Shown here piece after piece: positions 28,352-41,892 of a DNA stretch of 59,211 nucleotides. The stretch's first letter is position 1; every line of letters begins with the position of its first letter. Under the pieces are notes generated by a model that ran no database searches, was not told the DNA's origin, and saw nothing but the letters and a program-made list of their open reading frames with translations. A program made the translations under genes and the position numbers. This DNA comes from a virus: the IMG/VR virus record IMGVR_UViG_3300036770_005043, positions 1-59,211 of that record, one strand, 5' to 3'.

Positions 28352-28726
28352 TTAAAGCTTCAACTTCTTTCTTTTGCGATGGCGCGTACGGTGCTCGTTC
28401 CAGTGCAGGATTCGATGGCAATTAGCACAAAGCGGAATGCAATTCTCTGTCGCTTCTTTGATGGCAAGCGGAAGGTTATTGTTTCGGCTCACAAGCTCCT
28501 GCACCGCATGCTCCTTGGTCCCTGGGTGGTGAAAGTCGATCACCGCAGGGTGCTGCATCCCACAATGCGCGCATCGCTGCTTCGCCTTAAACGCCGTCCA
28601 CTCCGCCCGTATCCGATCCTTCTGCTGCCTCGATCGCCGGATCTGCTGCGCCTTATTCTTGAGATAATGCCGGCGGGAATACGCCCTCTGGCGCTCGCGC
28701 CGTGTCTCAGGGTCCTTGTACGGCAT
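28352..28726 (-). CDS. HNH endonuclease
   Basis: This 124-aa protein is basic and carries the zinc-containing HNH core: CAHCGMQHPAVIDFHH, then HAVQELVSRNNNLPLAIKEATENCIPLCANCHRILHW. Two CxxC pairs (CAHC, CANC) bind zinc; the first His of DFHH, an Asn in the helix region and the His of CHRILH make the HNH site. It could be a free-standing homing nuclease or assist packaging or recombination. It is intact, unlike the rightward HNH-like gene. Confidence 0.85.
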   Translation of the reverse strand: MPYKDPETRRERQRAYSRRHYLKNKAQQIRRSRQQKDRIRAEWTAFKAKQRCAHCGMQHPAVIDFHHPGTKEHAVQELVSRNNNLPLAIKEATENCIPLCANCHRILHWNEHRTRHRKRKKLKL

Positions 28727-28729
28727 GAC

Positions 28730-29158
28730 CTAAAGCGCCCGCTTCCAATAGAGCGTCTTGGCGTAAGCGTACTCGATCGGCGGGGTGTAAAGCTTGAAGC
28801 CACAGGCGATGAGGTTATTGGCGCTGGGATGGTTATCCGTCGTATCGGACACCGCAAGCTTGTAGCCCGCTCGCCGTGCCCAGTTGAGCCGCACGCGGAT
28901 AAGACGCTTCTGTAAGCCCTGCCCTCGGTACGCGGGCAGGAGCCCAGATCGGGAGAGGTAAATCCCGCGGGCGTGCTGGAGGGAGGGCGTCGCACAGGCA
29001 AACCCCACGTGCAACGAGCCGTGGTCCATGAGCCACCAGACGCCGTCTTCCGGAAAGTACAACCGATCCGAAGGAAGACAGGCCTTCTGTAGCGTCGTCA
29101 AAAGGCGTCGCCCAGCGTCGCCCTTCGCCGAGATGCGATAACACCGAAAACCCCCCAT
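28730..29158 (-). CDS. GNAT-family N-acetyltransferase
   Basis: This 142-aa protein has the acetyl-CoA signature LSRSGLLPAYRGQGLQKRLIRVRLNWARRAGYKLAVSDTTDNHPSANNLIACGFKLY: motif A is RGQGLQKRL, with the strand before it, and ANNLIACGFK is motif B. It would transfer an acetyl group to a small molecule or a protein. Phage GNAT enzymes can modify host or own proteins; the substrate here is unknown. The start codon lies inside a small GC hairpin without a Shine-Dalgarno sequence, so translation may be controlled. Confidence 0.85.
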   Translation of the reverse strand: MGGFRCYRISAKGDAGRRLLTTLQKACLPSDRLYFPEDGVWWLMDHGSLHVGFACATPSLQHARGIYLSRSGLLPAYRGQGLQKRLIRVRLNWARRAGYKLAVSDTTDNHPSANNLIACGFKLYTPPIEYAYAKTLYWKRAL

Positions 29159-29184: not shown

Positions 29185-29484
29185 TTAGATCGGGGAGTGG
29201 TAGTCGATGACCAATTGGACCGCGGCGATATAGCGGTCGAGCTCCGCAAGGTCGGCGGCTTTGTCTTGGGAAAAGACCGCCGTGCCACGGCCCGTGGCAC
29301 GTTTGCGACGGTCCGCTTTCAGGTTATCCAGCGTCTGGTTCAGCATGTAAAGCGTACAGTGCTCCATGAACTCCACCGGAAGCTCAATCAGATAGTCCCC
29401 TTTTGGGACCTTCTGCTTACGGGCCTTCTTGGTCTCAGGGTGGTCCTTGCCGAGGATCTTCTCGAGCACCGCTTGGCGGCTCAT
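29185..29484 (-). CDS. Small helical protein of unknown function
   Basis: The start at 29484 is coupled (ATGA) to the upstream gene, giving 99 aa: MSRQAVLEKILGKDHPETKKARKQKVPKGDYLIELPVEFMEHCTLYMLNQTLDNLKADRRKRATG... A longer frame to 29520 lies inside the neighbour and is rejected. It is mixed charge, mostly helical, with no known motif. Confidence 0.66.
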   Translation of the reverse strand: MSRQAVLEKILGKDHPETKKARKQKVPKGDYLIELPVEFMEHCTLYMLNQTLDNLKADRRKRATGRGTAVFSQDKAADLAELDRYIAAVQLVIDYHSPI

Positions 29485-29702
29485 GACAGGACCTCCACGT
29501 GGGACTCCGTCTCGATCCACACCCGAGCGCCGCAGGAGAGCGGCTTGTCAGGGGAGTAGACCACCCGCGACGGGCCGTTAATGACGACGTCCTTGGCGTA
29601 GGTATTGGATTTATAGTTCTTAATCGTCAGCACCGGCTCCTGCGTCCCGTTCTTCAGGTTCTTGCGGATGACGTGCTGGTTCACGTGGATGATCGTCTTC
29701 AT
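29481..29702 (-). CDS. Small beta-rich protein
   Basis: This 73-aa protein (MKTIIHVNQHVIRKNLKNGTQEPVLTIKNYKSNTYAKDVVINGPSRVVYSPDKPLSCGARVWIETESHVEVLS) looks like a compact beta barrel. I recognise the phrase HVNQHVIRKN-KNG---PVLT+K from phage hypothetical proteins. It is coupled on both sides by short overlaps. Function is unknown. Confidence 0.72.
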   Translation of the reverse strand: MKTIIHVNQHVIRKNLKNGTQEPVLTIKNYKSNTYAKDVVINGPSRVVYSPDKPLSCGARVWIETESHVEVLS

Positions 29703-29914
29703 GGCGCTATCCCTCGTTTCCGAATCTCAAACACGACAATCGGGGCATCCCATTCTTCCGCAATCTTAATACACTCCGCCCGCTCTGCGCCGGCCACCAT
29801 CGCCGCGAAGGTCTCCAATTGCTCGACGGTCGTCAACCTAAAGTCAAACGGGTTGTCGTTACCGTGCAAGAGGATCGCCTCTTGGGCCATGGCAATGATC
29901 TCATCGCGGGTCAT
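29699..29914 (-). CDS. MTRDEII-type early protein, copy 1
   Basis: From the ATG at 29914, coupled to the upstream stop, it encodes 71 aa: MTRDEIIAMAQEAILLHGND..., then TVEQLETFAAMVAGAERAECIKIAEEWDAP. The N-terminal helix and the FAAxVAxAERxxC block match the neighbour at 29911-30150, so they are paralogues of a family common in phages of proteobacteria. Function is unknown. An upstream ATG at 29959 is inside the neighbour and rejected. Confidence 0.72.
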   Translation of the reverse strand: MTRDEIIAMAQEAILLHGNDNPFDFRLTTVEQLETFAAMVAGAERAECIKIAEEWDAPIVVFEIRKRGIAP

Positions 29915-30150
29915 GACGCTTTCCTCCCACGGATGGCATTGGCCACACCACTCGGACATGACTCACAAGTTGGCTCGTAACTCTCAGCCACCAACGCACA
30001 CGCCTCACGCTCGGCTGCGGCAACGAGGGCGGCAAAGCGTTCAACGTCCATACACAACGGCATAATCGATTCATTTTTCTGGTACGGGCTGTGGCGACCT
30101 GTCGCCGCTCCTGCCTCTCGCGCCAGTCGGATGATGTCGTCGCGGGTCAT
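29911..30150 (-). CDS. MTRDDII-type early protein, copy 2
   Basis: This 79-aa protein begins MTRDDIIRLAREAGAATGRH and has MDVERFAALVAAAEREACALVAESYEPTCESCPSGVANAIRGRK. The C-terminal CESC-type pair may bind metal. It is a paralogue of the downstream gene. The first 11 coding bases, ATGACCCGCGA, are identical in four successive genes here. Confidence 0.75.
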   Translation of the reverse strand: MTRDDIIRLAREAGAATGRHSPYQKNESIMPLCMDVERFAALVAAAEREACALVAESYEPTCESCPSGVANAIRGRKAS

Positions 30151-30359
30151 GGCTTCTTCTCCGTGACTTCAGACACACCAAGCCCAACTATCTTTTCAAA
30201 GCAGCACTCCATGCAGAAATGCCTGACATTGCCGTCGGCAACGCGGTTGAATGTAACGACGCTGGTGATCGTCCCGTGAACGGGGCAATCGTATTCGGGT
30301 TGCACAATGACCATACGATCTCCTTCCATCGCCCATCCGATACTGTAGTCGCGGGTCAT
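30147..30359 (-). CDS. Small Cys-rich MTRD-start protein
   Basis: The start at 30359 gives 70 aa: MTRDYSIGWAMEGDRMVIVQPEYDCPVHGTITSVVTFNRVADGNVRHFCMECCFEKIVGLGV... The residues CPVH and CMECC form a likely zinc site. It is coupled both up- and downstream by ATGA-type overlaps. The longer frame to 30467 overlaps a coupled 27-aa gene and is rejected. Function is unknown. Confidence 0.68.
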   Translation of the reverse strand: MTRDYSIGWAMEGDRMVIVQPEYDCPVHGTITSVVTFNRVADGNVRHFCMECCFEKIVGLGVSEVTEKKP

Positions 30360-30439
30360 AGCACCGCCCTCATCAGTGCAAAACCAAGCATGAAAGACAC
30401 TACACACAGGGCTGCATCTATCCATTCTTCGCGGGTCAT
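30356..30439 (-). CDS. 27-aa single-membrane-segment micro-protein
   Basis: The frame from ATG 30439, preceded by AGGAGGAC, encodes MTREEWIDAALCVVSFMLGF then ALMRAVL: an acidic start and one hydrophobic helix. It shares the first 11 bases with three other genes and is coupled at both ends (ATGA). A membrane micro-protein of this kind could regulate host membrane enzymes or superinfection; this is speculation from shape. Confidence 0.55.
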   Translation of the reverse strand: MTREEWIDAALCVVSFMLGFALMRAVL

Positions 30440-30612
30440 GGCTTGTCCTCCTGAGCCAGCGCAGCACGAAGGTTCAGGATCTTCTCCGAAAGATCCCCGT
30501 CCTGCTCGATCTCTTCCAAATCCCGACAGCTACCCCACTCGGCGTCGATCATGACAGCCCATCTCTCGAGTAACTTCAGCGCATCTTCTGCGGCGTTGCG
30601 TAAATCGCTCAT
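30436..30612 (-). CDS. Small helical early protein
   Basis: The ATG at 30612 follows AGAAAGGAGA and gives 58 aa: MSDLRNAAEDALKLLERWAVMIDAEWGSCRDLEEIEQDGDLSEKILNLRAALAQEDKP. The helical pattern with L..AA..AL..LE.W is common in phage small proteins. An upstream start at 30651 would overlap the neighbour. Function is unknown. Confidence 0.7.
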   Translation of the reverse strand: MSDLRNAAEDALKLLERWAVMIDAEWGSCRDLEEIEQDGDLSEKILNLRAALAQEDKP

Positions 30613-31006: not shown

Positions 31007-31119
31007 AAGTAATCCCTCCCTCCTCGAGAACAGCGCCAGTTGGGGTTAGGCACATGCCGCCAGGAATAATCCCGACACGCCTTAAACTCCCGCCACAGTC
31101 GTCGCAAGGTTCGCATCAT
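31003..31119 (-). CDS. 38-aa basic micro-protein
   Basis: From ATG 31119 (or 31116) it encodes MMRTLRRLWREFKACRDYSW then RHVPNPNWRCSRGGRDYF. It is Arg/Trp-rich with an amphipathic N-terminal helix. Its end contains the ribosome site of the next gene (GGAGGGAGGG), and both ends overlap neighbours, as in the rest of the operon. Function is unknown. Confidence 0.55.
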   Translation of the reverse strand: MMRTLRRLWREFKACRDYSWRHVPNPNWRCSRGGRDYF

Positions 31120-31298
31120 CGCTTTTCCCTCAACGCTTTGGTATGCAGCCAGCCATTGGCCGTGGGCCGATAACCCACCGCCACGAGCGCCTCTTCGCTA
31201 CGGCAATAGCCGTCCTTGCGCTTATGCAACCGGAAACTATCGGGATTAGCAAACACCTGTTTGCATTCCGTACATCGTCGAACTCTGGGTGTCGTCAT
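31116..31298 (-). CDS. Small zinc-finger protein
   Basis: This 60-aa protein contains CTECKQVFANPDSFRLHKRKDGYC (residues about 9-32), a C2HC zinc-finger spacing (Cys-x2-Cys, His, Cys). It is basic and could bind nucleic acid. The start is coupled to the previous stop. Related single-finger proteins are frequent in aquatic phages. Target unknown. Confidence 0.76.
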   Translation of the reverse strand: MTTPRVRRCTECKQVFANPDSFRLHKRKDGYCRSEEALVAVGYRPTANGWLHTKALREKR

Positions 31299-37444: not shown

Positions 37445-38215
37445 TTAGAAAGGAGCCGACTCCGAGGAGCCTTCCTCACCCTCATGCTTCACCTTGACGG
37501 TGCCAGAGGAAACCGATTGCGAGAATGCCTTGGCGGTCTCGTAAAGACCTTGGTCTTCCACGGTGCCAATGCGCTCCACTTCCCAACCGAACCACTTACC
37601 TTTGTCATTCGACTCCGGTTGAGTGGTTAAGCGGTACATTTGGCTGTACATCGGCGGGGTGAAAAGACCGTTACGGCCGGTCAGTTTCACCGACTGCATC
37701 ATGCTGTTCCACTTGCGGCTCTTCTTGAGCTGCGTGGACTTCATGACAATCAAAGCAGGCGAGGGGGAGCCGTCTGCTTCTACCACCATCACGTAGTGAT
37801 TGGCGGTGTTCTCGATGTAGTTGCCGTTATCCAAATAGTCCTTGTTCTCCCCTGGCTCGCGATGGGTCTTTGACAAGATATCGCTCGTCGAGGGGTAGAT
37901 ATGGATCGGCGCACCCGATCCGCTGCCACGTGGCGCCCATTCAATGTACTGACGGACGTACGCGCAAGGGATGACGGTGATGCCTTTCTTGCCATCATAG
38001 AGCTGGCCGGTGACGCTGTTGTAGATCATGCCGGGAAGAGCGCCATCGATCGCGCCGACTTCGGGGGAGGTGTTCGTCAAAAGACGAAGAAACGGAAGCG
38101 CAAAGTCTTCCTGATTCATGCCCGCAAAACTATCGCGAGCATCCTCCTCAAAAGCTGAGGCAAGTACCAATGCGGTGGATTGCTCCACCTTCTCTGCAAG
38201 TGCTGATTTAGCCAT
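37445..38215 (-). CDS. Probable ssDNA-binding protein
   Basis: This 256-aa protein (MAKSALAEKVEQSTALVLASAFEEDARDSFAGMNQEDFALPFLRLLTNTSPEVG...) has a beta-rich core (GMIYNSVTGQLYDGKKGITVIPCAYVRQYIEWAPRG, HYVMVVEADGSPSPALIVMKSTQLKKSRKW, YSQMYRLTTQPESNDKGKWFGWEVERIG) and an acidic tail ending EEGSSESAPF. An acidic C-terminus ending in Phe is typical of phage and bacterial SSB proteins. Its place beside primase and exonuclease-type genes supports this. The fold assignment is inferred, not proven. Confidence 0.68.
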   Translation of the reverse strand: MAKSALAEKVEQSTALVLASAFEEDARDSFAGMNQEDFALPFLRLLTNTSPEVGAIDGALPGMIYNSVTGQLYDGKKGITVIPCAYVRQYIEWAPRGSGSGAPIHIYPSTSDILSKTHREPGENKDYLDNGNYIENTANHYVMVVEADGSPSPALIVMKSTQLKKSRKWNSMMQSVKLTGRNGLFTPPMYSQMYRLTTQPESNDKGKWFGWEVERIGTVEDQGLYETAKAFSQSVSSGTVKVKHEGEEGSSESAPF

Positions 38216-38235: not shown

Positions 38236-38790
38236 TTAAACAGATTTAATCGTCGCTTTTTTGCCAATGAAGGCACCGAACAGTTCTGTGGGGAACTCTT
38301 CGCCACGCTCCACTCGCTCTTTGACCCAAGCCTTGAGGGTTTGGGGTTCTACCTTCTCAGCCTGCGCAGCGGGGTAGCCTTGCTGACCGAGGAGATCCAG
38401 TAGACGAACACAAAGCTCGTCTTCGCCGCGGCCGAAACGGACGCTGACGGTGTTTTTGATGATGTCGTCGAAGCCATGATCGCGCAGCCACTGGAACGCC
38501 TCTGCGCGGCGGGCCTCACTGATTGAAGCACTATAGAACGGCTTGATGTCGATGCTGCTGCCGTCTTCCATCTTGAAGGACGACATGCCGAGCTGAGCCA
38601 GAGCCTCGGGCAGCGCTTCTTCGGTGATCTTGCGGTACTGGTTTTTCCGCTCCTTCACCGTTTCTTCGAGGTCGTCGATCTCCTTCTCTAAGAGCTTGGC
38701 CCGTCGTGCGAGGGCCGATATCCCAGAGATATCATCGTCTTGAACCTTTAAAGCGCCAGCATCATTTTCAAATAAACTCGTGAGAGTCAT
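38236..38790 (-). CDS. Coiled-coil replication-region protein
   Basis: The start at 38790, after AGAAAGGAGAATATG, gives 184 aa. It has a coiled coil (SALARRAKLLEKEIDDLEETVKERKNQYRKITEEALPEALAQLG) followed by SSFKMEDGSSIDIKPFYSASISEARRAEAFQWLRDHGFDDIIKN and VSVRFGRGEDE. I recognise this arrangement from phage genomes where it lies next to the SSB-like gene; the coiled-coil start resembles Gam-like end-binding proteins. A role in recombination or end protection is possible. Confidence 0.74.
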   Translation of the reverse strand: MTLTSLFENDAGALKVQDDDISGISALARRAKLLEKEIDDLEETVKERKNQYRKITEEALPEALAQLGMSSFKMEDGSSIDIKPFYSASISEARRAEAFQWLRDHGFDDIIKNTVSVRFGRGEDELCVRLLDLLGQQGYPAAQAEKVEPQTLKAWVKERVERGEEFPTELFGAFIGKKATIKSV

Positions 38791-41175: not shown

Positions 41176-41892
41176 ATGGTTGATCTGATCCCTATCCGTA
41201 GACTCTACAAGTACGAACGCCTCGAGCGGGTCGATAGCCCAGAGGGCCGGCGGTACGTGGACGGTAATGCGAATGCATTGCCTAGCGTCACCACCATCCT
41301 GTCGGGAACGAAGGACAAGTCGGGCCTTGACGCGTGGGCCGCGAGGGTTGGTGCTGCGGAAGCGAACCGGATTAAGAACGAAGCTGCCGCGGTCGGCACG
41401 CACATGCATAACGTCATCGAGCGGATGATCGCCTACCGTGACCTGCCGAGGCCCACTAACTGGCTCATGGTCCGTGGTTATGAGATGGGTTATCGGCTCA
41501 TAAACGAGTATTTCTTGAACCTTAACGAGATCTGGGGCTCAGAAGTGCCGCTGTATTACCCGGCTAAGTACGCAGGAACCACGGATTTGGTCGGTATTTA
41601 CCGCGGGAATCCTGCGATCGTCGACTTCAAACAGTCGCTCAAGCCCAAAAAGCACGAGTGGATTGAGGACTACTTCCACCAGCTTGCCGCCTACGCGCTT
41701 GCGCACGATGCGGTGCATGGCACCACCATCAAACACGGCTACGTGCTGATCGCGCTACAGAGCGGAGGCACGCAGGAATTCAGCACCAGTGGCGCCGAAT
41801 TTGAGCGGTATAAAGAAGCTTGGATGAAACGCGTGGAGGCGTTTAACCCGCCATCGGCGGCATCCCCGCCTGAACCGCAGCCGCCCCCGTAA
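41176..41892 (+). CDS. RecB/Cas4-like PD-(D/E)XK exonuclease
   Basis: This 238-aa protein has the Cas4/RecB-type motifs: LPSVTTILSGTKDKSGLDAW, VGTHMHNVIE (His78), EVPLYY (Glu123), YAGTTDLVGIY (Asp137), AIVDFKQS (Asp150, Lys152) and QLAAYALA (Gln169, Tyr173). Length is normal for phage recombination exonucleases. It probably resects DNA ends with the SSB and helicases. It begins directly after the HNH-like stop. Its last 50 bases overlap the end of the convergent 1367-aa gene, an unusual overlap coding Pro/Ala-rich tails on both strands. Confidence 0.92.
   Translation: MVDLIPIRRLYKYERLERVDSPEGRRYVDGNANALPSVTTILSGTKDKSGLDAWAARVGAAEANRIKNEAAAVGTHMHNVIERMIAYRDLPRPTNWLMVRGYEMGYRLINEYFLNLNEIWGSEVPLYYPAKYAGTTDLVGIYRGNPAIVDFKQSLKPKKHEWIEDYFHQLAAYALAHDAVHGTTIKHGYVLIALQSGGTQEFSTSGAEFERYKEAWMKRVEAFNPPSAASPPEPQPPP

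Follow-up and report, generated by a model that had tools for sequence, protein, structure and literature searches.

Four small genes of a 59-kb virus contig, analysed over its full length of 59,211 bases (the window), begin with the same 11 bases, and comparison with related contigs makes it probable that they belong to a set of relay-translated gene cassettes which recombine at short coding boxes. In the main gene family the boxes would have two roles, as the framework of a protein predicted to fold into three helices and as joints where phages exchange two variable segments (V1 and V2). The contig is from a freshwater-type phage, its family-A DNA polymerase has 78% amino acid identity to that of DSL-LC04, the nearest named phage, and it also encodes helicases, primase, exonuclease, terminase, portal and tail tape-measure-like genes. 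No start box was found in the corresponding region of DSL-LC04. On the minus strand near the variable stretch we also observed a small Cys-containing, zinc-finger-like protein (31116-31298), a GNAT-type acetyltransferase (28730-29158, Pfam PF00583) and an HNH-like ORF (28352-28726) which only some of the close relatives have. The same variable slot of relatives holds large TPR-like genes of variable size (L006:10047-11216, L173:489-2336, L175:745-2613) and, nearby, glycosyltransferase-like genes (L169:3968-4648, L173:3392-4069), all of them beside small cassettes.

The 11-mer ATGACCCGCGA was found exactly at 30439, 30359, 30150 and 29914 on the minus strand, and every copy is a gene start (Table 1). 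The original prediction had noted that these four starts share 11 bases and had proposed a search for further copies; only 0.02 copies are expected in the window, four were reached in 0 of 100 shuffles, and no fifth copy was present among all 59,211 bases, so the observation was borne out. It had counted three starts that overlap an upstream stop as ATGA; the overlap is real and is found at all four (stops end at 30436, 30356, 30147 and 29911). A Shine-Dalgarno-like GGAGG, GAGGG or GGAGA is located 12-13 nt before each of the four ATGs, within the preceding gene. The 27-aa and 70-aa proteins (B27 and C70), which had been described as unrelated to the others, are indeed non-members of the family formed by the other two (family HMM E 0.06 and 0.05 in a four-sequence search), and none of the four genes received a function from PHROGs or Pfam. 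An identical 6,237-bp stretch including all four copies is present on another contig, L086. Five ATGACCCGCGA starts lie inside 2.1 kb at L031:13330-15597, exceeding the copy number of the window, and at L270:3930 the 11-mer is internal to a family gene whose relatives have MIRDGWRQCAEGQ; this may be a copy of the start box placed within a gene.

Table 1. Genes, boxes and Shine-Dalgarno-like sequences of the variable stretch (window positions).
Feature	Position	Strand	Remark
Start box copy 1 (gene B27)	30429..30439	-	exact 11-mer
Start box copy 2 (gene C70)	30349..30359	-	exact 11-mer
Start box copy 3 (gene D79)	30140..30150	-	exact 11-mer
Start box copy 4 (gene E71)	29904..29914	-	exact 11-mer
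A58, 58 aa, without box, upstream of B27	30436..30612	-	homologues have MTRDDIT, MIRDDIT or MNRDDIT fused before the same body
B27, 27-aa membrane-like peptide	30356..30439	-	moved as a unit; 87% identity to L167 copy, which has other neighbours
C70, 70-aa Cys-rich protein	30147..30359	-	body conserved, N-termini swapped in relatives
D79, three-box modular family member	29911..30150	-	family HMM E 2e-28; recombinant by four-way comparison
E71, second three-box family member	29699..29914	-	family HMM E 1.8e-19
D79 start box (MTRDDII)	30130..30150	-	predicted helix 1 is residues 3-12
D79 V1 variable segment	30043..30129	-	whole N-half 98% to L088, 52% to L014; lowest model confidence at residues 21-30
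D79 mid box (ERFAALVAAAEREAC), putative recombination joint	29998..30042	-	within predicted helix 2; AAERE invariant; switch point
D79 V2 variable segment	29935..29997	-	C-half 89% identical to L089, 41% to L088
D79 end box (IRGR; IRARG in most members)	29923..29934	-	codons make the putative GGAGG Shine-Dalgarno of E71
E71 mid box (ETFAAMVAGAERAEC)	29771..29815	-	
B27 Shine-Dalgarno-like GGAGG, inside A58	30447..30451	-	
C70 Shine-Dalgarno-like GAGGG, inside B27	30367..30371	-	
D79 Shine-Dalgarno-like GGAGA, inside C70	30158..30162	-	same 3' end precedes B27 in L167
F73 (phrog_8676), syntenic, closes variable stretch	29481..29702	-	ATGA overlap here too

D79 and E71 are paralogues, hence their common start, and fall under one family profile which B27 and C70 do not match. 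Genes of this family consist of a start box (ATGACCCGCGACGACATCAT), V1, a mid box (FAALVAAAEREAC), V2 and an end box (IRARG), with the consensus MTRDDIIRMAREAG - variable - LERFAALVAAAEREACAKVCE - variable - A.AIRARG, and the AAERE of the mid box is invariant across 55 members. In IMG/VR, at least 433 of the 599 stretches that match the pattern encode relatives of the family, as many as four or more copies are adjacent in relatives, and members also occur in bacterial genomes including Delftia acidovorans and Polaromonas sp. OV174, the latter being an example with the end box. Among the 55 members there was no PHROGs match at E 1e-3, no PADLOC match, and only isolated single-member matches in Pfam. 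Tblastn of D79 and of the family consensus against named phages returned nothing, to which the BLAST low-complexity filter may contribute, and a literature text search for the protein motifs gave unrelated words only. AlphaFold2 predicts three helices for D79 (H3-12, H30-58 and H68-78, mean pLDDT 79.5), which coincide with the three boxes, and the first variable loop has the lowest confidence of the model; a fold search with this model found nothing significant in the PDB, and matches in BFVD were to uncharacterised uncultured-phage proteins only.

The end box appears to be a hidden Shine-Dalgarno sequence for the following gene. In the 174 family genes with an IRxRG end, the Arg before Gly is encoded by AGG in 147, compared with 10.1% of the other Arg codons in these genes (p 7e-117). 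This AGG precedes the next ATG by 11 nt in 105 genes and by 14 nt in 23, and 129 of the genes overlap the next one by 4 nt. From the AGG bias and its spacing, therefore, the conserved C-terminus would act, at least in part, as a nucleotide signal to the gene behind it.

Within the family genes, V1 and V2 assort almost freely. When DNA sequences were split at the mid box, a similar C-half was retained in 1 of the 42 pairs with similar N-halves, a similar N-half in 1 of the 15 pairs with similar C-halves, and after exclusion of the boxes V2 was unrelated in 15 of 17 V1-similar pairs. A four-way recombinant set was recognised at the DNA level, composed of the window's D79 (N1C1), L088 (N1C2), L014 (N2C1) and L031 (N2C2): D79 and L088 share 98% of the N-half and 41% of the C-half, L014 and L031 share 90% and 48%, and C-half identity is 80% between L088 and L031 and 70% between D79 and L014. 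Moreover, L089 has the C-half of D79 (89%) behind a different N-half, and the V1 of E71 was found again in L131, joined to a different C-half. In the near-identical phages L013 and L031 (upstream identity 389/400), two adjacent genes carry one V1-only and one V2-only replacement, the first with start box 30/30, V1 28/60 and V2 plus end 122/123, and the second with V1 48/51 and V2 plus end 89/195; in L008 and L032, V2 is replaced after preceding identities of 396/400 and 125/126. The discontinuities within family genes are located at the mid box, the sequence common to both partners at a switch point spans only some 30-40 bp, and the variation consists of the replacement of whole segments differing in length. 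Start boxes running directly into end boxes, MTRDDIIRARGSK in L311 and MTRDDIIRARGQA in L335, look like minigene scars; such collapsed units fit what would be expected of a deletion between ATCATCCG and GCCATCCG, by which they probably arose. No reverse transcriptase of a diversity-generating retroelement was found among the 20 larger window proteins scanned.

The start box also stands ahead of at least six unrelated non-family protein types. Among 1,707 non-family ATG genes of family-bearing loci, nine began with it, compared with 0.58 expected (a count that assumes codons 2-4 to be independent) or 0.07 by the internal in-frame rate; nearly all relatives are metagenome contigs, and some loci were chosen for containing the family. 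Codon choice at the start box is more uniform than amino-acid identity requires, the MTR[DE] starts being written with ACC-CGC in 32 of 54 family genes (3.9 expected) and in 8 of 20 non-family genes (2.0 expected). Homologues of C70 have a common body (IIKQPEYDCPVHG...) and begin with MTRDYSIG in the window, with MTRDDITMP in L093 and L170, and elsewhere with MNRGDAK, MSSNDAK, MTTQPN, MTEQPN, MSLDDIT, MNHGN or MNTEEF; homologues of A58 read ATGACC-GACCTACGC in L170 versus ATGACCCGCGACGACATCACC-GACCTACGC in L358, and the LLELAAKAAG and GRW families have members both with and without the start box. Judged from these alignments, the box has been joined in frame to the bodies of unrelated genes (the Cys protein, A58, and the LLELAAKAAG and GRW families). 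In the window itself, B27 and C70 have only 11-12 box bases in common, and therefore chance is possible for these two individually. The idea of a reused start cassette with swapped tails thus holds for the reuse of the start, and tails do change behind the box, but in the main family they are exchanged at the second conserved box in mid-gene.

Small genes are also swapped whole, exactly at stop/start joints, and as often at joints that lack the 11-mer as at those that have it. Between related contigs, 89 of 217 ends of high similarity (41%, 8% expected) lay no more than 10 nt from the start of a small gene, and 126 of 222 beginnings (57%, 14.7% expected) fell in the interval running from 30 nt ahead of a start to 10 nt behind it, the breakpoints being deduplicated by local context only and the gene starts called by a simple script of our own with a bonus for 4-nt overlaps. 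Similarity ended at the last ATGA base or one base beyond in 28 cases, compared with 0 of 1,332 at ATGAs inside small genes. B27, for example, follows A58 in the window and C70 in L167 and L168, with exact joints, and the 3' end of C70 precedes D79, B27 and A58-type genes. The original prediction took the 11-mer itself for the site of gene gain and loss, which found no support in breakpoint frequencies at ATGA joints of 13/108 (12%) with the box and 43/433 (10%) without it; at this equal density, the test gave no sign that the 11-mer matters specially for the exchange of whole genes. Gains and losses exactly at 11-mers, which relatives had been expected to display, account for only 6 of 102 register-keeping exchanges as box against box, with 20 of box against another start and 76 without any box. 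A special role of the ATGA tetranucleotide was tested as well, and ATGA joints had no significant excess of breakpoints over spaced ATG starts with a Shine-Dalgarno sequence (6.3% vs 3.1%, p 0.2).

We propose that an early operon has a hypervariable stretch here, made up of small cassettes that are chained to one another by translation. The final codons of each gene would contain the Shine-Dalgarno sequence for the gene behind it, and its stop would be the TGA of the ATGA overlap, so that any unit could be placed behind any other and still be translated. What the sequences show directly are the boxes, the free assortment of V1 and V2, the four-way set, starts grafted on other bodies, a Shine-Dalgarno sequence coded by AGG and the position of breakpoints at joints; the mechanisms that follow are interpretation. 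Swaps within a gene would come from homologous recombination of the annealing type at the boxes, exchanges of whole genes at ATGA joints would be illegitimate or short-homology events kept because translation is preserved, and the variable loops may face changing host targets as interaction surfaces. Rad52-like phage recombinases have been shown experimentally to make mosaics between diverged homologous sequences (PMC3945230), and in that assay recombination in a 67%-identity region with a longest perfect stretch of 11 bp fell below the detection threshold; 11 bp alone are therefore probably too short, and the longer start box plus the mid box would be a more plausible recombination substrate. 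In contrast to that relaxed system, no Rad52-like recombinase was identified in the window, nor any annealing recombinase with confidence; a PD-(D/E)XK exonuclease is encoded at 41176-41889. Pam3 gp34-like and gp33-like proteins adjoin the primase (about 37445-38215 and 38236-38790, minus strand), and the gp34-like model is beta-rich and weakly resembles ssDNA-binding folds. The former, Pam3_Gp34 (37448-38215), was considered as a single-strand-binding or annealing candidate and gave no confident fold match.

The strongest competitor, which we regard as a serious possibility short of an even chance, is illegitimate recombination followed by selection: exchanges would occur anywhere, only joints that keep frame, Shine-Dalgarno sequence and coupling would survive, and the 11-mer would be an inherited family start. 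Selection for intact genes could indeed explain where whole genes are exchanged, with the DNA sequence playing no part. Breakpoints that are as dense at joints lacking the box as at joints having it, the lack of a significant difference at non-overlapping ATG starts and the absence of any box from most register-keeping exchanges all agree with this account. It leaves unexplained, however, why V1 and V2 assort freely exactly at the mid box and why the box grafted on other bodies is identical at the nucleotide level. Going beyond recombination at boxes, the boxes may be an evolved, integrase-free combinatorial system which makes three-helix proteins from swappable V1/V2 loops and plugs the units into a translational relay; we hold this stronger version to be doubtful.

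That the start box (ACCCGCGA) is a translation-initiation or regulatory element under selection, comparable to the start-associated sequences of Cluster K mycobacteriophages, seems unlikely: it is always directly at the start codon and its ACC-CGC is more uniform than codon usage predicts, but it is absent from most ATGA joints of the same operons, the Shine-Dalgarno sequence lies upstream and outside of it, and the window lacks the mycobacteriophage motif. Simple tandem duplication of one gene followed by divergence, with the four starts as remnants of common ancestry, accounts for the paralogy of D79 and E71 and for the four or more adjacent copies in relatives; the homologues of B27 and C70 have other starts and other neighbours, the halves of one family gene differ in their closest relatives, and the four-way recombinants contradict it as a full account, which makes it quite improbable. 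Still less probable are assembly chimaeras joined at short repeats, which could mimic recombinants in a set consisting almost wholly of metagenome contigs; the stretches shared at the switch points are short, several arrangements recur in separate contigs (L093/L094/L095, L167/L168, L171/L172), and end-box members are also found in bacterial genomes. Chance, or convergence of GC-rich genomes on MTR[DE] at the amino-acid level, to which isolated MTRDDI starts in unrelated phage genes (e.g. L262, L303 and L344) could be ascribed, is the least credible account in view of the expectations given above for the window and for the non-family genes.

The nearest precedent is the idea that short conserved boundary sequences underlie phage mosaicism, put forward by Susskind & Botstein 1978 and Clark et al. 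2001 (HK620), as cited in PMC3029335, and the likeness lies in the exchange of different genes at short conserved sequences at gene edges. The mycobacteriophages Island3 and Brujita provide a case of about 50 bp, in which gp67 and gp68 have 18 C-terminal residues in common (PMC3029335). Here, in contrast, the joints are coding boxes within one abundant family (start, middle and end), the segments assort intragenically, and the end box would double as the Shine-Dalgarno sequence of the next gene; the joints thus differ from known boundary mosaicism in being coding, intragenic and threefold, with one doubling as a ribosome-binding site. The SAS/ESAS of Cluster K mycobacteriophages (PMC3203893) likewise repeat a short sequence, the 13-bp GGGATAGGAGCCC, at the starts of several unrelated small genes of the non-structural region, but lie upstream of the start and contain the Shine-Dalgarno sequence, whereas the present repeat begins with the start codon and is translated; GGGATAGGAGCCC had no match in the window with up to 2 mismatches allowed. 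Domain shuffling in phages (ICP1 Odn, PMC8263062; tail fibres, endolysins) also yields proteins from joined gene halves, whereas the unit here is an early protein of 60-100 aa with two segments, three conserved boxes and several copies per genome.

These genes bring to light a very abundant phage gene family which is absent from PHROGs and Pfam, with a C-terminal protein motif whose sequence would be largely explained by its encoding the ribosome-binding site of the next gene. They offer a concrete, testable case for the old question of whether phage mosaicism is guided by short conserved stretches at the edges of genes or its boundaries only mirror selection. If the combinatorial system were true, the phages would obtain new host-interaction proteins at a high rate with expression unbroken.
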